This document shows positions 27,138-38,815 of a DNA stretch of 41,225 bases, one piece after another (the first letter of the stretch is position 1; every line of letters starts with the position of its first letter). Where the stretch lies: IMG/VR virus record IMGVR_UViG_3300046512_000098, positions 1 to 41,225 of that record; one strand, given 5' to 3'. Source of the DNA: a virus. Both the position numbers and the translations under genes were made by a program. The notes beneath the pieces were generated by a model. The model saw nothing but the letters and a program-made list of their open reading frames with translations. It searched no databases and was not told where the DNA came from.

Positions 27138-28685
27138 CTATCCCATCCAGGATCCAACGGCAGCGCGCCGAGGATCTGGTTTCTTTTTGCGCTCGACAAC
27201 CGGAGCGGCGAATGTCAGAGCAACCGCATCCCACTCATCCGGGGAACGTACTCCCCGTTTGCGCATCTGCTCTTTGGACTCGATGAGCAGGTATTGGTTA
27301 GCGTCGTATCGGTACTGAGGCCCGCAAGCGTCGGTCTGCAGCGCGTCTTCGTCGGGGATGTCGGCGCCACCCGGTTCGTCGAGCCAGTCACGCGACCGCA
27401 TCCACATTTCCGCCCGTCTGTTGCGGGGGCCTGGCCGTGTCTCGCCATTCGGGAGAATGATATCCATCGCCTGCGGAGAACCGCCGAAATCGATAGCCTC
27501 GCACACGTCCGAATATGGCGGGCCCCAGCTTTTAAGGATGTCGAAGACGCCAGCACCTTGCCCGCCGACATCGATGAACACCTTGTCGGGCTTGTCAGCG
27601 TCGATGATCTGCTTGATCCAGTTAGCGCCAGCAACATTATCAAGCTTGCTTTTGCTCTCGCGCTTCGAAACCTTGCGGCCACGGCGCCATGCGATCGAAA
27701 ACCGGTCATCCCCGAACCGAGATGGGTCAACGCCGAGGATAAGCGGACCAATGCCCTCGATCGTCGCCTTTCTCGCAGCGACGACAGGCTCAGGCTTGAT
27801 AAACCCGTCATGGCCGGTCATCTGGAATGCTTCAGCCGCTGTCGCCGGGTATTCCTGCTTGAACAGGGTCGGGTCTTTTAGCTCAGCCACCTTTGCCCGC
27901 CTCCAGACCATTTGCCCGAGCGTGAGGCCGTATGCCTCCTGGTATGTCGTCTCTTCCTCGTCGAGCGTGAAACCATCTGGAATCGTCCGGGAATATTCCG
28001 GCTGCCAGAACCAAGGAATGAAGATGGCGATGTAGTCTCCTATCCCCGCTTCCGCCTGCTGCCAGCGTTCGTGAAACTCACCGCCGACGCCATTGGCCGT
28101 GCTTTCTAGGATGATCTCCGTTTCTGGAAGATCTGGTATTGCTTGAACGACGCCAGCAAAGTGTGTCGGCGCATTCGGCCAGAACGCCACCTCGGAGCCG
28201 TGGAACAACTGCACCGTCTGCGATCGACCGACTGCCTTTGCTCCTGCAGTGCCGACTGCATAGCCGCTGTCCAGCTTTGGAAACGCAAGCTCCTTGGCGT
28301 TGGCTGCGCCTGTCGTGGGCTTCACCAGTTCCGGGCAATGATCATGGTACCGTTCGACCATGCCGAAGAGATTGTTTGTCGCATCCTGCTCATGTGTCAG
28401 GATGAAGACGCGCCGCCCACGCTTGTGCGTGACACGATGGTAGAAGCGACCGCCGACATAGGTTGATATGCCCTGCTGCCTGCCCTTGAGGACGAGGGCG
28501 CGAACCTTACCAGTCCTGGCGCGTTGTTCCTCTAGCCGGGAATGAAGATAGATCTGCGCCGCATTGAGTTCGAACGGCTCGACGCTGCCGCCCTTTGTTC
28601 GGATCTTTAGACATTTGCCGGCGTAATGAGGGAAGTCATCGCGCAATCTGATGCGGATGGCCTTCTCTCGTTCACTCAAGCTCAT
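27138..28685 (-). CDS. terL: Terminase large subunit
   Basis: 515 residues with an N-terminal ATPase and a C-terminal RNase H-like nuclease. Walker A-like KGRQQGIST at residues 67-75, Walker B and catalytic Glu in TEIILESTANG, and nuclease acidic residues in LGVDPSRFGDD, VFIDVGGQGAGVFD and SPDEWDAVALTF. It cuts and packages DNA at the portal. Its start overlaps the small gene at 28672 by 14 nt. A P22-like gene set and a circularly closed assembly are consistent with headful packaging. Confidence 0.95.
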   Translation of the reverse strand: MSLSEREKAIRIRLRDDFPHYAGKCLKIRTKGGSVEPFELNAAQIYLHSRLEEQRARTGKVRALVLKGRQQGISTYVGGRFYHRVTHKRGRRVFILTHEQDATNNLFGMVERYHDHCPELVKPTTGAANAKELAFPKLDSGYAVGTAGAKAVGRSQTVQLFHGSEVAFWPNAPTHFAGVVQAIPDLPETEIILESTANGVGGEFHERWQQAEAGIGDYIAIFIPWFWQPEYSRTIPDGFTLDEEETTYQEAYGLTLGQMVWRRAKVAELKDPTLFKQEYPATAAEAFQMTGHDGFIKPEPVVAARKATIEGIGPLILGVDPSRFGDDRFSIAWRRGRKVSKRESKSKLDNVAGANWIKQIIDADKPDKVFIDVGGQGAGVFDILKSWGPPYSDVCEAIDFGGSPQAMDIILPNGETRPGPRNRRAEMWMRSRDWLDEPGGADIPDEDALQTDACGPQYRYDANQYLLIESKEQMRKRGVRSPDEWDAVALTFAAPVVERKKKPDPRRAAVGSWMG

Positions 28686-29940: not shown

Positions 29941-30081
29941 TCACAGCGATCGCCAGATCCCGTCGCCAGGCGGCTGATACGGCGTTGCGCACCCTGCCAG
30001 CATCAGGAACGGGCCTGCGAGGCAAATGGCTGCAATGACGAGGGCAAGCCATATGAGAACTGTGCGGAGTGGTTTGCTCAT
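29941..30081 (-). CDS. Small lipoprotein, 46 aa
   Basis: MSKPLRTVLIWLALVIAAIC continues as LAGPFLMLAGC, giving a hydrophobic signal with lipobox LAGC at residues 28-31. A 16-residue mature peptide follows (CATPYQPPGDGIWRSL). It overlaps the upstream gene as ATGA. Small phage lipoproteins can act as superinfection-exclusion factors or as extra spanin parts. A Rz1-like protein already exists at 11448, so exclusion is at least as likely. Confidence 0.65.
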   Translation of the reverse strand: MSKPLRTVLIWLALVIAAICLAGPFLMLAGCATPYQPPGDGIWRSL

Positions 30082-30338
30082 GCTGCTGCCAGTGCGCCTT
30101 TGGCGACCAAGGCCTTGAGCTTTTCAGCCTTACGAACCCGCTTGGCTTCAGCGAGACGCATGCGGTTGCGGATGACGCGCTTCTCTTCCATGGTAGCCCT
30201 GCGAGGCGCCGGCGGGATATATGGAGACGACAGATCGAGAGAGCCGCGCCTGACAAGCTTGGGAGCGCCGCGCGACAGGCCAAAATCAGTAAAGGTCGTC
30301 AGAGCTGCAGCCATGGCCGCAACAGCCAATCGTCTCAT
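30078..30338 (-). CDS. Basic hypothetical protein with signal-like N-terminus, 86 aa
   Basis: I place the start at ATG 30338 (AGGAG 6 nt upstream). Residues 1-25 (MRRLAVAAMAAALTTFTDFG) could be a signal peptide or membrane anchor. The rest is Pro-rich, then very basic (RRATMEEKRVIRNRMRLAEA). First gene of the late operon after the long leader. Function unknown. Confidence 0.6.
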   Translation of the reverse strand: MRRLAVAAMAAALTTFTDFGLSRGAPKLVRRGSLDLSSPYIPPAPRRATMEEKRVIRNRMRLAEAKRVRKAEKLKALVAKGALAAA

Positions 30339-30494: not shown

Positions 30495-30509
30495 GTGCAT
30501 TTTATGCAC
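30495..30509. promoter_or_regulatory. Perfect palindrome GTGCAT-TTT-ATGCAC
   Basis: Six-base arms around TTT. The right arm is part of TTATGCACA (30502-30510), which fits the DnaA-box consensus TTATNCACA exactly. It could be a protein-binding operator or an RNA hairpin in the late leader. Confidence 0.55.
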
Positions 30510-30524
30510 ATACTCGAATTGATT

Positions 30525-30550
30525 GCCCCGATTTATCCACCATTCGGGGC
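30525..30550. promoter_or_regulatory. Hairpin GCCCCGA/TCGGGGC with DnaA-box-like loop
   Basis: A perfect 7-bp stem encloses a 12-nt loop containing TTATCCACC (30533-30541), one mismatch from the DnaA box TTATCCACA. It starts 31 bp, about three helical turns, from the box at 30502 in the same orientation. No T-run follows on either strand. Confidence 0.55.
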
Positions 30551-30717
30551 AAGATGGTTCAACACAAGATCAACGAGCGGGGGCTGCTAAGACCATCAAG
30601 TCGATCTTCTGGATAGGATTTGGGAGAGGTGCTAACCGTGGCTGAGAGCCTCAAGGCGAATGCGTACAGCCGTTTAAACGTTGCCTGCTTCCAAACTTTA
30701 AAAACAGTTCTTCTAAC

Positions 30718-30736
30718 GCTGGTCGTGAACACCAGC
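30718..30736. promoter_or_regulatory. Hairpin GCTGGT/ACCAGC in the late leader
   Basis: A 6-bp perfect stem with a 7-nt loop (CGTGAAC on plus). On the minus strand a TTTTT run begins about 14 nt after the stem, too far for a classic terminator, but it could be a pause site. Confidence 0.4.
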
Positions 30737-30788
30737 AGAGACGCGGCGAATTCCGCAACAGAACCGTCTCGAAACAAATCACTCCCGT

Positions 30789-30816
30789 ATATTAACCAAT
30801 TTCAAGTTAATGGCAA
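30789..30816 (-). promoter_or_regulatory. Predicted late-operon promoter
   Basis: On the minus strand TTGCCA (30811-30816), a 16-nt spacer, then TAATAT (30789-30794), close to the sigma-70 consensus. It lies between the end of the NusG-like gene (30831) and the long leader, as expected for a separate late promoter. Confidence 0.55.
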
Positions 30817-30830
30817 GTGGGCTCAAGAGG

Positions 30831-31430
30831 TTAGCTGGCGAGTTCCACAAGAGGCACGGGTATCTCTACATTCACCATGCCATTTAGGGTTTCGATGATG
30901 GCCTTGATGGTGTTCCTGCCTGTGGCGTCAACGACACGGCCTCTCCTGCCACCGAACATGCCGTAGGTCGAATCGATGGCGATCGGGGCTCCGGCAGGGT
31001 ACATGACGCGCAGACGGCTTTGCGGGATATGTTCCTTTCGCTCCTCCTTTTCTTCGTCTCTGATCCTCTTCCTGATCTTTGCTTCCTCGTAATCCTTGTC
31101 GAACTTGGCTTCCTGCTGCTTGATGAGGTCAATAATTGCATCTCGAAACGGGATAGGGGTGCCTTTCGTCCCGAGGATTCCGGCTACATAATCGCACCCC
31201 TCAAGCTTGGTCCAGTAGCAAGGGCCGACAACAAAAGCATAGCCTGGGATAAGCGGAAACCATCTGTCGATCGGCTTCTTCGTGCGGTGGTGAATGAGCA
31301 TTCGGCGTTCAAGAGGCATATAGACCTCGAAGCCCTCCCGTTGCAGGGAAAGCTCGATGTTGGTGATACGCGGGTCTTTTTTTGAAGGTCGCTGGGCGTT
31401 CGGCTTCAGGCGGATTGCATACCAGTTCAT
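30831..31430 (-). CDS. NusG-family transcription antitermination protein, 199 aa
   Basis: I take ATG 31430; GTG codons at 31436 and 31439 are alternatives. The N-terminal NGN domain is clear: NWYAIRLKPNAQRPSKKDPR, NIELSLQREGFEVYMPLERR, then DRWFPLIPGYAFVVGP. A long charged insert (about residues 100-135: IKQQEAKFDKDYEEAKIRKR) precedes a KOW-like end (GAPIAIDSTYGMFGGRRGRV). NusG paralogues such as RfaH bind RNA polymerase and suppress termination in chosen operons. As the last early gene, just before the late promoter and leader, it is the likely late-gene activator. Confidence 0.85.
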   Translation of the reverse strand: MNWYAIRLKPNAQRPSKKDPRITNIELSLQREGFEVYMPLERRMLIHHRTKKPIDRWFPLIPGYAFVVGPCYWTKLEGCDYVAGILGTKGTPIPFRDAIIDLIKQQEAKFDKDYEEAKIRKRIRDEEKEERKEHIPQSRLRVMYPAGAPIAIDSTYGMFGGRRGRVVDATGRNTIKAIIETLNGMVNVEIPVPLVELAS

Positions 31431-31432
31431 TG

Positions 31433-31987
31433 TCACCACCCTCGCTTGAAGTGCTTCTCAGTCCACATAAGGGCTTCTTCGACACGTTCGATGGCGATGT
31501 CTCTGTCCCTAGTCTTAACGCCGGCGACACGGAGCTTTGCGATGAGATGGATACCCATGCTATTGATCTCCTCCAGCAGTCGGCCCCGGCTGTTGCCATT
31601 GACTGCCTCATAAGGAAGGGCTTTGGGTGCTGGGCCGAAAGGCTCCGCCAACATCTGGACGTAGCTTCCCGGTATTGTGGCCGGCTTCTGCTCCTCGTGA
31701 TTAACAGCCTTAATTGCAGGTTTTACGCTCTTCTGCCTATCCCATGCGATAAGTTCCGCTTCATCGAAAAGCCTGCGCCTGCCAATGACGAGAGGGCTCG
31801 GGAACCCCATATCCTCCTGTCTCATCCATCTCCACAAAGTCATTTCAGATATTTTGTACCGGTCTTTAACCTGCGTCGCCGTGAGATACGTCTTGTTTGC
31901 CAACCTCTTGCTCGCTCCATCTTGGATGTTGCGCATCAGCCCGTCGATGACTCCTTCAAGTTCCTGGGTGTCTGCCGCCTTTGCCAT
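31433..31987 (-). CDS. AlpA-like HTH DNA-binding protein, 184 aa
   Basis: Residues about 33-85 are a winged HTH of the AlpA/HTH_17 type: YLTATQVKDRYKISEMTLWR then SPLVIGRRRLFDEAELIAWD. The C-terminal half (about 120-184) is helical, ending EEALMWTEKHFKRGW. It sits between the DnaA-like and NusG-like genes, 2 nt before the latter. Probably a phage transcription regulator or small-terminase-like DNA binder; target unknown. Confidence 0.75.
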   Translation of the reverse strand: MAKAADTQELEGVIDGLMRNIQDGASKRLANKTYLTATQVKDRYKISEMTLWRWMRQEDMGFPSPLVIGRRRLFDEAELIAWDRQKSVKPAIKAVNHEEQKPATIPGSYVQMLAEPFGPAPKALPYEAVNGNSRGRLLEEINSMGIHLIAKLRVAGVKTRDRDIAIERVEEALMWTEKHFKRGW

Positions 31988-32013: not shown

Positions 32014-32616
32014 CTACGATGCTGTTTTCTTTATGGAATTTAAAATTGTGGTGTGATCACGCCCACCGAAGATGCGGCCGATAACCACTGAGGACAGGTC
32101 TTTCCGCTCGTCAAAAACAGCGCGGACGCAAGCATGCCGGGGTGCAACAAGCGATCTTGTTCTGCGAATACCGCGGATATCATCCCACGTGACGCCGGGC
32201 CAATCGCGGAGAACATCCTTGACGATCAGTTCGACACTGCGGCGGCGGTCTCCTTCTTCTGGGAAGTCGCCCTCAAGCGGGATTTTCAAAAGATCGGCTT
32301 GCGCCAGTATCCGTGCCCTAGCGTCACTCAGATCAAGCTCCAGCTTCTCGGCGCGATCTTCTGCTTTGCGAAGCTGCTTGGCGATGTCGACATAGGTACG
32401 GTTGACCTGTTCAGCCGCCTTAAGCGCGCTGCTCAGATGCTTAATCCGCGTCTCAAGCGCGCTTATTGCTGAGCCGGTGACGGCGTTGATGTCAATTGCC
32501 GCGTCTTTCTCGGTCGCCTTCCCGCTTGCATTGCCGTCGGCGCCCATAAGGCGCTTGCGGATGCCCGTGTAATGGTGCCCTAAGCGGTTCGCTAAATCTG
32601 GCTGGTGGACTGTCAT
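32014..32616 (-). CDS. Stand-alone DnaA domain IV protein with coiled coil, 200 aa
   Basis: Residues about 125-200 are a complete DnaA C-terminal DNA-binding domain: WDDIRGIRRTRSLVAPRHAC, then LSSVVIGRIFGGRDHTTILN. The RDHTT signature and the basic-loop Arg residues that contact the DnaA box in E. coli DnaA are kept. The AAA+ ATPase and domain I are absent. Residues 50-110 form a coiled coil (likely dimerisation), and residues 1-25 resemble a small HTH (LANRLGHHYTGIRKRLM). It should bind TTATNCACA-type sites but cannot hydrolyse ATP. Role inferred: origin factor or regulator. Confidence 0.88.
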   Translation of the reverse strand: MTVHQPDLANRLGHHYTGIRKRLMGADGNASGKATEKDAAIDINAVTGSAISALETRIKHLSSALKAAEQVNRTYVDIAKQLRKAEDRAEKLELDLSDARARILAQADLLKIPLEGDFPEEGDRRRSVELIVKDVLRDWPGVTWDDIRGIRRTRSLVAPRHACVRAVFDERKDLSSVVIGRIFGGRDHTTILNSIKKTAS

Positions 32617-33051: not shown

Positions 33052-33245
33052 GGCGCGTCAGCGTCCCGAACCTTGCCGATCAGCTCGAACTCGGCGACGC
33101 CTTCAGGAAGATCCACCTGAAGCATTGCCTGCTCGATCGCCTGATCTTCCAGTTGCAACTCGCCGTCATCTTCGAAGGCGATCGTGAAGGTGATCCTGAT
33201 ATCAGCGTATTTCTTAGCCTTGCGGCTTTTCGGTCTCTTGCTCAT
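33048..33245 (-). CDS. Hypothetical protein, 65 aa, basic then acidic
   Basis: The N-terminus is strongly basic (MSKRPKSRKAKKYADIRITF) and the remainder acidic (AFEDDGELQLEDQAIEQAML). ATGA overlaps join it to its neighbours. Function unknown. Confidence 0.6.
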   Translation of the reverse strand: MSKRPKSRKAKKYADIRITFTIAFEDDGELQLEDQAIEQAMLQVDLPEGVAEFELIGKVRDADAP

Positions 33246-33640
33246 GACGGCGCCCTCATCCCTGCCGCCACCTCACGTAGCCGAGCTGCCATCTCTGCGC
33301 GGCGCTCTGGGCTTTCCTGCTGTTGAGGCTTTAGCTCGACGACGTTGGCGGCCTGCTGGCGCTGCTCGACACGCTGCTGAAGGGCGCGCTCGGCCTCGGC
33401 CATGTCTTCATAGGCGCCGCGGTTCAGCCAGGTTGCCGAGAGCGGCACAAATTCCTTGTCGCGCTCCTTCATGGTGCGGAAGAAGTATCGAGCTCCGTCT
33501 ATGATGTCCTGCGGGCAAGCACCGGCTTTGATGTGTCTGGCGAACGCTTCTCGAGCGAGGCCACGGCCATCGGTGTGACGGGCATGCGGACGCCATACCT
33601 GTTCCCAGAATTCCTTGAAGCCTTCGGGCTCTTCTCTCAT
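33242..33640 (-). CDS. Primosome/replication-accessory-like protein, 132 aa
   Basis: I use ATG 33640 (MREEPEGFKEFWEQVWRPHA). The segment GLAREAFARHIKAGACPQDI, IDGARYFFRTMKERDKEF, VPLSATWLNRG is the pattern found at the C-terminus of many phage replication initiators and primosomal proteins (FWxxYP...GAR...FxPxxxTWLN). The C-terminus is a Gln/Glu-rich coiled coil. Here that domain stands alone. It may help load host helicase; inferred. Confidence 0.65.
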   Translation of the reverse strand: MREEPEGFKEFWEQVWRPHARHTDGRGLAREAFARHIKAGACPQDIIDGARYFFRTMKERDKEFVPLSATWLNRGAYEDMAEAERALQQRVEQRQQAANVVELKPQQQESPERRAEMAARLREVAAGMRAPS

Positions 33641-34158
33641 GCTGCGACCGCCTCTCTTGCAAAGAACCGCGGGCCGCCGACATGCTGGATGTGGAAGCGA
33701 TGCCACGCGGCGTTGTCTTTTCCGGTGAATGCCGAGTCTTCAATCCACTTCACCCGGCCGACGCTGACGATATGGCTGCACTGGTCGATGAAGGGGATGG
33801 CTTGACGGGTATGCAGCCAATCAGCATCGAATAAGAGCCAAGTAGGCGCGATCGACTGGAACCGCAGGATCATGGGGTGAAGGAGTTCTCGGGTCCAAGG
33901 TGGGTTGGTGATGATGGCATCGAATTTGACGTGATCGAGCGCTATGCTGGTGAGCGCGTCAAAACCTGTCTCGATATCTCCGGAGAATGAACAGGAAAGG
34001 CCATTACGCTCCAGCTCGGCTAGAAGCTTGCCCTCTCCGACGCATGGCTCTGCAAACGTCCTGATGCCGCGAAGATGCGGGATGAGCGGCCACACTGCAG
34101 ACGGTGGAGTCTGATAGGCGTCATTCTTGCGTCGTTCGAAATCGCTACGCTTTCCCAT
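33637..34158 (-). CDS. DNA adenine-type methyltransferase, 173 aa
   Basis: Class I SAM-binding motif FAEPCVGEGKLL (residues 35-46), acidic D61 in SGDIETG, and the catalytic NPPW at 85-88 in FDAIITNPPWTRELLHPM. NPPW marks N6-adenine (or N4-cytosine) amino-methyltransferases. No partner restriction gene is present, so it probably protects phage DNA from host enzymes or adjusts host methylation-sensitive control. The product is short and lacks an obvious separate target-recognition domain. Confidence 0.85.
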   Translation of the reverse strand: MGKRSDFERRKNDAYQTPPSAVWPLIPHLRGIRTFAEPCVGEGKLLAELERNGLSCSFSGDIETGFDALTSIALDHVKFDAIITNPPWTRELLHPMILRFQSIAPTWLLFDADWLHTRQAIPFIDQCSHIVSVGRVKWIEDSAFTGKDNAAWHRFHIQHVGGPRFFAREAVAA

Positions 34159-34514
34159 TATTCAGCCCACTCCAGCTCGACCTTGATCATGCCGGCGCGC
34201 TCAACAGGGCCTCGCGGCGCAATGGTGATTTCAAACTTGCTGTCATCGATGCCGATCGCCGCGGCAATGCCGTCCTGGTATGCCTTGCAGCTCGAAAGGA
34301 TGTTGTCGGCATCACGAGCGCGTCGGTCAGGCGGGAAGAACGAGTATTTGACGGAAAGGCTATCGGCATCGATCTTGCCAATGCCGGCTTCCAACGTCGT
34401 GTAGTAGGCCGTGCGCTTCGCTGCCTTCTTGGCGCGGGCGAGAGATGACCAATGCACGCGAGCGTTCGGCGACAGGCGTTTATCTGGCCATGGAAGGAAT
34501 ATCTCGGCCATCAT
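34158..34514 (-). CDS. rusA: RusA-family Holliday junction resolvase
   Basis: 118 residues, normal for RusA. The N-terminus FLPWPDKRLSPNARVHWSSL is followed by the active-site region RRARDADNILSSCKAYQDGI (Asp68, Asp70, Lys77, Asp81) and GIDDSKFEITI with Asp90/91. Acts as a dimer that cuts four-way junctions, resolving recombination or replication intermediates before packaging. ATG 34514 overlaps the preceding stop; ATG 34511 is an alternative. Confidence 0.9.
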   Translation of the reverse strand: MMAEIFLPWPDKRLSPNARVHWSSLARAKKAAKRTAYYTTLEAGIGKIDADSLSVKYSFFPPDRRARDADNILSSCKAYQDGIAAAIGIDDSKFEITIAPRGPVERAGMIKVELEWAE

Positions 34515-34920: not shown

Positions 34921-35230
34921 GTTGCGGAGCCTCGTATTTTTCTCGGAAGGAATCGAATACGGGCCGATCGACCGCCTCGAATGTCTGCGGCGTGTCGTCG
35001 AAAAGGCCATCGGCAGACGAAGTGCAAAGCCCGTTCTCGATCAGGAAGCGGCCAACACCAGTTGGGAACTTCACGTTGTCGCGCACGGTGAAATAGATGT
35101 AGTTCCCGCCGATACGCTGCGCCTCTTCACTCTGCGAGAACTGCCGGCAGAGAAGGCGGCCGCTTTTATGCAGGCGCTGGAACGCAACGATGATATTCTT
35201 GTTGAGCTTCCGTCTCTTCGGCTTCGTCAT
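34913..35230 (-). CDS. Hypothetical protein, 105 aa
   Basis: Begins MTKPKRRKLNKNIIVAFQRL; the middle RIGGNYIYFTVRDNVKFPTG looks beta-rich. Coupled to the GIY-YIG-like gene upstream by an ATGA overlap. It may be a small DNA-binding protein given its basic start. Function unknown. Confidence 0.65.
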   Translation of the reverse strand: MTKPKRRKLNKNIIVAFQRLHKSGRLLCRQFSQSEEAQRIGGNYIYFTVRDNVKFPTGVGRFLIENGLCTSSADGLFDDTPQTFEAVDRPVFDSFREKYEAPQHV

Positions 35231-35793
35231 TCGGATTTCTCCTTGATCTCGGGGCGGATCCCCTGGATGACCGAAATAAGGTCACGGATCACCCAAAGCT
35301 GGATGTTCGTGGACTCTCTGGCCTGGATTGATTTCAGCTTGCGAAGCGTCCATGCGGGATTGAGCGCCTTCAGTTTTGGGAAAAGGCGATGCTCCATCAC
35401 GGTCGAGCGTGTTTCACCCGGAGCGATCGGCCCGAGAGCCACCGCCATCAGTTCGCCGGCGATGCGCAGATCTTCGATAGCAGCCTCATTCACAAAGCTG
35501 CCGTCATTGTCAGCCGATATAGGCTTCGTCGGCGCCGAAACGCTCTTAACGTCGTTGATTAGCGCAAGAACCTCGTCGGTCGGCTTAAACCATTCCCCGA
35601 AATAGCGGCTGGCTTCCAGCTTCGAATGAATGAGACGCTCCGTCTCCTTGCCGCCGTCGATGGTTGCAATGACCTTCACCGGCATGGCGCAGTTGGTTTG
35701 GATCGCCGTGGCCCGCTTCGAAACATTGTCGGAATAGCCGATCTTAATCAGGCCATCCTGCGAGTCCTGCTGCTGAACGAAGTAAACCGTCAT
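35227..35793 (-). CDS. T5orf172/GIY-YIG-like protein, 188 aa
   Basis: Residues 1-80 match the T5orf172 (MUG113) branch of GIY-YIG proteins: VYFVQQQDSQDGLIKIGYSD, KRATAIQTNCAMP, and ETERLIHSKLEASRYFGEWF. The C-terminal part (about 100-188) contains ATRSTVMEH-like and TLRKLKSIQ helical stretches without a known domain. A paralogue with the same N-terminus lies at 38240. Nuclease activity is plausible but unproven for this branch. Confidence 0.8.
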   Translation of the reverse strand: MTVYFVQQQDSQDGLIKIGYSDNVSKRATAIQTNCAMPVKVIATIDGGKETERLIHSKLEASRYFGEWFKPTDEVLALINDVKSVSAPTKPISADNDGSFVNEAAIEDLRIAGELMAVALGPIAPGETRSTVMEHRLFPKLKALNPAWTLRKLKSIQARESTNIQLWVIRDLISVIQGIRPEIKEKSE

Positions 35794-37989: not shown

Positions 37990-38243
37990 TGGATTGCCTC
38001 CAGAAATTCCTTTTCAGAATTGCTACCGAAAGCCTCAATCCATGCCGTTTTCAGCAGATCGTGAGTGTTGATGTGGTCAATCAGCTTGTCCCAGACACCA
38101 GATTCCTTGAGCTTCCTGACGCGGTTTTCGCCCGCGTTTTTTCCCGTGAAATGCAGATCGTGCTTGGCGACATGGTTGGCATCGACGGCGCCCGCATACT
38201 GCGCAAGGAACAGATCGTCGCTCATGGTCCAGCGCCGGCTCAT
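37986..38243 (-). CDS. Small HTH/Myb-like protein, 85 aa
   Basis: MSRRWTMSDDLFLAQYAGAV, GKNAGENRVRKLKESGVWDK: the W...DD..L..Y......G....R...L pattern resembles a SANT/Myb-like or Rap1-type helical DNA-binding unit. Coupled to the second T5orf172-like gene by a 4-nt overlap. Function inferred only. Confidence 0.6.
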   Translation of the reverse strand: MSRRWTMSDDLFLAQYAGAVDANHVAKHDLHFTGKNAGENRVRKLKESGVWDKLIDHINTHDLLKTAWIEAFGSNSEKEFLEAIQ

Positions 38244-38815
38244 GCCGCCACCTCTTCAGAGGTCGTGCCGACCCGCCGCGGCGCGCGGCATTCAGCTATG
38301 AACACCTCAATTTTTGAAATCTCGTCTTCGGAAAGGAGACGGTAGGCTTGCCGATACCCACCAGCGCCATCGAGGATTGCCTTGACAGCCCGAGGTATTG
38401 CGACGTGCTTCCTGCGAATGTAGGAGGCATACTTCGCCGCTCGGTCGACCCGCATCTTGTAAGTCCCGACGACTTTAGCTTCGGGGCTTTTGGTTGGTGG
38501 GCGACGAAAGAACTTCCCGGTCCACACCGAAAGATCAACCAGCTCACGCAGGGCTTTTCCATCTCGGATGCCTTCGGCGAGAACGACCAGATCGGGGACC
38601 GCCTCAAACCATTCGCCCCGAATTTGGTACTTGGCGAAACGCTCATGAATGGCGCGTTCCATCTTCCGGCCGCCCTCAAGCTGAGAGATTATCTCAAGCT
38701 CTTCGTAGCTCCACGCCTGCAGGCTTATGAGCCTTGCCGGAGGGAAAACGGAGTGACCAATCTTGATTGGCCCAGCCTTCCCGACCGGGCGGATGAAGTA
38801 GACGTATTCGCTCAT
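38240..38815 (-). CDS. T5orf172/GIY-YIG-like protein, 191 aa (second copy)
   Basis: The N-terminal domain YVYFIRPVGKAGPIKIGHSV, ARLISLQAWSYEELEI, and RKMERAIHERFAKYQIRGEW parallels the gene at 35227. The C-terminal region (about 95-191) is different and basic (YASYIRRKHVAIPRAVKAIL). It is the second gene of the Cro operon, a place often used by early anti-host or recombination functions. Enzymatic activity unproven. Confidence 0.8.
   Translation of the reverse strand: MSEYVYFIRPVGKAGPIKIGHSVFPPARLISLQAWSYEELEIISQLEGGRKMERAIHERFAKYQIRGEWFEAVPDLVVLAEGIRDGKALRELVDLSVWTGKFFRRPPTKSPEAKVVGTYKMRVDRAAKYASYIRRKHVAIPRAVKAILDGAGGYRQAYRLLSEDEISKIEVFIAECRAPRRVGTTSEEVAA

Follow-up and report, generated by a model that had tools for sequence, protein, structure and literature searches.

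Transcription activators consisting of a stand-alone DnaA domain IV are already known, in the form of GafY and the N-terminus of GafA. GafY binds upstream of the structural operon of a gene transfer agent, contacts domains 3-4 of RpoD, and depends on IHF, with GafZ acting as its antiterminator partner (PMC11150451), and activation of this operon by GafY and GafZ is under the S24-type repressor RogA (PMC11150451, PMC9632790). Under the name HdaB, GafY had originally been regarded as a replication factor; the effects on replication were later attributed to induction of the gene transfer agent (PMC9632790). GafY (HdaB) of Caulobacter crescentus, its orthologs in Hyphomicrobiales, and the GafA N-terminus of Rhodobacter capsulatus are the known systems closest to the phage locus analyzed here. 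LoaP with the dfn hairpin (PMC12691694) provides a further comparison, in that a NusG paralog gene likewise lies beside an operon with a conserved leader RNA, the structure of which is a predicted one in the phage case. Similar phage genes annotated as DnaA-like are known as well, and phiLM21_p033, EVB88_078 of RHph_N28_2, and EVB37_086 of RHph_TM3_3_3 (phrog_27829) belong to the same broad set as the protein studied here. Proteins of the phiLM21_p033 type are annotated as replication initiators, and the phiLM21 papers propose no regulatory function.

The DNA analyzed, referred to as the window, is the whole 41,225-nucleotide IMG/VR virus record IMGVR_UViG_3300046512_000098. Encoding an integrase along with a replication module and structural proteins, this 41-kb entry probably represents a temperate phage. 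Rhizobia are the hosts of its relatives, and root-nodule bacteria are probably those of the phage itself. On the minus strand, genes for a RusA-like Holliday junction resolvase of the replication/recombination module (34158-34514; phrog_34), a methyltransferase, and a replication initiation O-like protein (33242-33706; phrog_270, phrog_9474) precede the gene of interest (32014-32616). It is followed by genes for an HTH_17/excisionase-like DNA-binding protein (31433-31987; PF12728, phrog_4745) and a NusG paralog, a putative phage transcription antiterminator (30831-31439; PF02357, 39.1 bits; phrog_25909), and then by the late operon. The candidate first gene of this operon (30078-30338) has a homolog in L038, as found by comparison of translations, and the large terminase subunit is encoded at 27138-28685 (phrog_2).

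The gene at 32014-32616 (minus strand) encodes 200 amino acids, and its start is backed by a homolog from the closest relative, L002, that is 87-88% identical and begins with MTIHQPDL at the same position. The C-terminus is a genuine DnaA domain IV. Pfam Bac_DnaA_C (PF08299) matched residues 140-197 with 42.4 bits (E 7.4e-11; curated cut-off, 31.5 bits), and the nearest solved structures by sequence are DnaA domain IV proteins, among them 1j1v, the crystal structure of domain IV on a DnaA box. An AlphaFold2 model, run on an alignment of 12 relatives, matched 1j1v in Foldseek with an rmsd of 1.3 Å, a target TM of 0.71, and a probability of 1.0. In this model, the five helices of domain IV (residues about 128-199; 32020-32235, minus strand) are preceded by a long predicted coiled coil at residues 35-109 (32290-32514, minus strand), most of which has a pLDDT above 90. 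No DnaA AAA+ domain (PF00308) was matched anywhere in the record, and the protein scored 41.7 bits with the whole-DnaA model TIGR00362, against a cut-off of 343.9. The initial annotation, made from the letters alone, had described the protein as a domain IV joined to a coiled coil, with the AAA+ module missing, and the profile search it proposed and the structure prediction bear out this reading. The short HTH-like N-terminus that it also listed is modeled instead as a single low-confidence helix at residues 6-23. Retention of the box-reading signature, a further point of that annotation, extends to seven equivalents of Escherichia coli DnaA residues: upon alignment, R152, R154, and R160 correspond to R399, R401, and R407, and D187, H188, T189, and T190 to D433, H434, T435, and T436. 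The position of E. coli Q408 is taken by H161.

Relatives were found in phages and prophages of Rhizobium, Sinorhizobium, and Bradyrhizobium upon searching viral contigs, isolate phages, and genomes; an initial broad genome search with the domain IV protein returned mostly host DnaA. Most relatives have at their N-terminus a short motif (M-x-h-H ... RxRL type), which a linker or coiled coil, differing in length between proteins, connects to domain IV. Across the aligned phage family, there is little or no variation at the positions of R407, H434, and T436. The window protein has the domain IV fold and the box-reading residues in common with host DnaA but differs from it in the missing AAA+ module and in one additional residue, shared by the phage family, between the PRH/PRQ motif and the recognition helix. 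In a domain IV tree based on 67 columns only, the phage proteins are set apart from host DnaA (90/89) and from the GafY orthologs, which form a clade of their own (100/100) with the window protein outside. Two Bradyrhizobium prophage proteins are exceptions to this pattern, and the deep forks are without resolution; the Sinorhizobium set is nested within the phage group. In the prophage at L020 (6022-9384), transposase-like genes appear to be inserted in the domain IV gene, after its N-terminal part.

The features common to the phage proteins and GafY are a small stand-alone domain IV lacking AAA+, an adjoining putative antiterminator gene, a phage-type structural operon, and, as seen for the Sinorhizobium relatives, an S24-type repressor gene upstream. 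However, GafY orthologs encoded beside DUF6456 carry RDRTT in the recognition helix, whereas the window protein has RDHTT, and the GafY orthologs found are mostly about 130-170 amino acids long, without the N-terminal coiled coil and C-terminal domain IV that make up the phage layout. The partner also differs, being a phage NusG paralog or a phrog_15385 protein in place of the DUF6456 protein of GafY; no DUF6456 (GafZ, PF20057) was found in the window. The window protein is not a member of the GafY family.

A fixed gene order recurs in the rhizobial phage and prophage relatives, namely replication genes, the domain IV gene, the gene for a NusG paralog or a phrog_15385 protein, and terminase. 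At 14 loci, the NusG paralog gene lies 0-1.7 kb downstream of the domain IV gene, in several cases with a 4-base overlap; five of these loci came via the leader RNA described below and so cannot be counted independently of it, although the domain IV gene played no part in their selection. A reverse search with the NusG paralog alone against 50,697 isolate-phage records matched four records, representing only the three phages phiLM21, RHph_N28_2, and RHph_TM3_3_3. All three carry the domain IV gene just upstream, separated from the NusG paralog gene by an HNH gene in RHph_N28_2 and RHph_TM3_3_3. L106 has the NusG paralog and the leader without a domain IV gene, and in L004, L006, and L025 the domain IV gene is present and a NusG paralog was not detected.

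A second cassette was found in RHph_I1_23, RHph_I3_18, and RHph_N3_2, where the domain IV gene is followed by genes for a LuxR-type HTH protein and a phrog_15385 protein. Terminase was seen after this cassette in RHph_I1_23 and RHph_N3_2, and the domain IV protein of RHph_I3_18 scored 25.6 bits, below the Pfam cut-off. In RHph_Y1_10 (L123, 3221-3727), the slot ahead of the LuxR-type HTH gene is occupied by GcrA (PF07750, 37.4 bits versus a cut-off of 26.9), which serves alphaproteobacteria as a transcription-activating cofactor of sigma-70 (PMC7403470). Replacement of the domain IV protein by this unrelated transcription activator, albeit in one phage only, argues for a role in transcription.

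In Sinorhizobium prophage remnants (L007, L012, L028-L032, and others), the domain IV gene is divergent from an S24-type repressor gene, with repeated CAACATG/CATGTTG elements in the intergenic region, and is followed by the gene for the same phrog_15385 protein as in the second cassette. No replication genes were seen near the domain IV gene in these remnants. By analogy, the layout of S24 repressor, domain IV protein, and phrog_15385 protein recalls RogA, GafY, and GafZ. An interpretation of the element as a gene transfer agent was dropped in favor of a prophage remnant because S. meliloti 4H41 seems to have a disrupted terminase reading frame. The three genes are intact in the remnants while structural genes decay, and L012 (8960-11224), L028-L032, and L126 (18419-19036) apparently occupy a shared chromosomal site in Sinorhizobium. 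We also considered phrog_15385 as a GafZ homolog and rejected it at an hhalign probability of 0.6-1.5%. By eye, phrog_15385 proteins (L012, 10604-11224; L004, 8884-9639) and the DUF6456 of GafZ display a common motif order, which reads ITxxQxxAGxxY, then NVC or DVCC, then L-N-A/S-L.

Between the NusG gene and the leader, the window contains a predicted sigma-70-type late promoter on the minus strand (30789-30816; -35 TTGCCA, spacer 16, -10 TAATAT). Support for this promoter comes from its conserved place in relatives and not from the promoter scan, whose count was not above expectation (3 found versus 2.0 expected in shuffles). A palindrome, ATTAAC-N9-GTTAAT (30791-30811, minus strand), lies across the promoter spacer and is conserved in most leader-bearing relatives. 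It is absent from L091, L101, and L106, and these three have a better -10 box.

Downstream of the promoter, a conserved 78-nt leader RNA with a predicted three-way junction (30694-30771, minus strand) was identified in the window and, by collection scans, at 11 further loci (L002, L046/L097, L091, L092, L093, L101, L102, L104, L106, L111, and L115); chance matches to a shorter pattern were removed by eye and by folding. Among the nine leader loci with upstream sequence, the NusG paralog gene is present in all nine and the domain IV gene in eight. Wobble changes preserve the 25 pairs of the fold, two-sided changes being absent, and folding of the window copy gave a z-score of -2.74. The 5' half is nearly invariant, which may reflect protein binding to the RNA or DNA or, alternatively, a packaging site. 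This half could also pair as GAGACG/CGTCTC, giving a possible alternative fold. A search of Rfam with the leader yielded nothing convincing. A covariance model of the leader produced one strong match among 397 genomes of the order, in G028, which carries the domain IV locus L046; a weak match in G112 (30.8 bits), with no NusG or domain IV gene nearby, was judged to be due to chance. In comparison with LoaP, lambda Q, and HK022 put, the arrangement described here concerns a phage late operon with a predicted leader of different RNA sequence and fold, and it includes an additional domain IV gene.

As targets of the protein, the initial annotation had named two DnaA-box-like sites, TTATGCACA at 30502 and TTATCCACC at 30533 (30502-30541, plus strand). 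These are the best such sites in the window, but we judge them to be chance occurrences and rejected them as targets, since they are not above chance in shuffles and not conserved in relatives. Shuffled sequences contained an exact TTATNCACA in 37.5% of cases and two sites no more than 40 bp apart in 15.5%; a pair including the exact site was seen in 0 of 200 shuffles, a combination picked after the fact. Neither site is intact in L002, where the first reads TTCTGCACA and the second is absent. DnaA-box sites with up to one mismatch numbered 11 in the window versus 13.7 expected, and no cluster of them was found there. Exact boxes occurred in only two of the other related loci scanned (L006 and L025), in neither case at the late promoter. 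Upstream of the late promoters of the relatives we found no shared DnaA-box-like site or convincing short motif, and no IHF consensus lies near the late promoter. A published survey reported DnaA sites without asymmetry in alphaproteobacterial phages (PMC9437464). The sequence conserved around TTATGCACA possibly derives from a former coding region (EYVHKMHELIGK); it differs from L002 at two places, both of them third positions of codons.

We consider it probable, at roughly 0.6, that the domain IV protein is a transcription activator of the late operon, working in the manner of GafY and paired with an antiterminator. The observed basis of this proposal comprises a domain IV without an ATPase, a conserved gene order, a conserved promoter and leader, and the GcrA swap in one phage. 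The protein, made from the last part of the replication operon and probably dimerized through its coiled coil, would act as a phage-specific regulator that reads DNA via domain IV without ATP control, and most likely it would assist transcription initiation by RNA polymerase at the late promoter, right in front of the structural genes. Its neighbor, the NusG paralog, would probably load on the elongating polymerase at the leader RNA and carry it through the late operon. An activator and an antiterminator ahead of a long structural operon would thus be the logic common to GafY-GafZ and the phage cassette, although the parts differ.

Three roles had been offered initially, in starting phage replication, in competing with host DnaA, and in regulating transcription, and the gene neighborhood best supports the last. 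By position alone, a function in replication would fit too, since in nearly all phages the domain IV gene comes right after the replication genes; its immediate neighbors in the window, L011, L039, phiLM21, and others are O-like, DUF1376, or DnaB genes. In such a scheme, domain IV would mark the origin, as an initiator or an origin-binding accessory, and an O-like or DUF1376 primosomal protein would bring the helicase, in keeping with the database labels of relatives ("DnaA-like replication initiation," "chromosomal replication initiator"). We regard this as unlikely, considering that an O-like or DUF1376 protein is already present in these phages, that the Sinorhizobium remnants keep the domain IV gene with no replication genes seen nearby, that GcrA fills the slot in RHph_Y1_10, and that the window yielded no DnaA-box cluster.

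The palindrome, overlapping the late promoter spacer in most leader-bearing phages, would suit a repressor or an early-to-late switch that shuts off the early/replication operon or keeps the late promoter silent until needed, and might be recognized by a dimeric protein through its two domain IV heads. However, the neighboring LuxR-type HTH or HTH_17 proteins are equally good candidates for palindrome binding, and L091 has the domain IV gene but lacks the palindrome, which makes such a role rather improbable. Competition for the chromosomal DnaA boxes with the host's own DnaA, altering host replication or transcription, found no direct support and seems very improbable. It would fit with the retention of all main box-reading residues, including H188 (E. 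coli H434), which is lost in GafY, and with the initial report that HdaB affects replication (PMC9632790). Those effects were, however, later ascribed to induction of the gene transfer agent, the phage gene is tied to the late operon, and its binding specificity may differ from that of DnaA because of the one-residue insertion and the Q408-to-H change.

Tentatively, and at a little less than even odds, we suggest that rhizobial temperate phages possess an undescribed late-gene switch, composed of a domain IV activator, a NusG-paralog antiterminator, and the 78-nt three-way-junction leader. Such a switch would parallel, on the phage side, the GafY-GafZ control of gene transfer agents and might be its distant source. 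As far as searches show, with the literature search covering open-access papers, the pairing with a NusG paralog, the phrog_15385 and GcrA arrangements, and the leader RNA are apparently new. Databases file such proteins as replication initiators; were they late activators, many alphaproteobacterial phages would carry a mistaken annotation, and there would be a phage parallel to the DnaA-like portion, so far a puzzle, of the regulators of gene transfer agents. Consisting of a single activator, antiterminator, and RNA leader, the cassette would offer a compact test system for the recruitment of NusG paralogs in alphaproteobacteria.

Some further features were noted around the cassette. The early region of the window contains two related T5orf172/MUG113 (GIY-YIG-type) nuclease-like genes on the minus strand (35227-35793 and 38240-38815). 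Downstream of the leader, L002 has a tRNA-like 3' end (GGTTCGAATCC...CATTCCA; 2259-2366), and in phiLM21 and RHph_TM3_3_3 an annotated tRNA-Met is located between the cassette and terminase.
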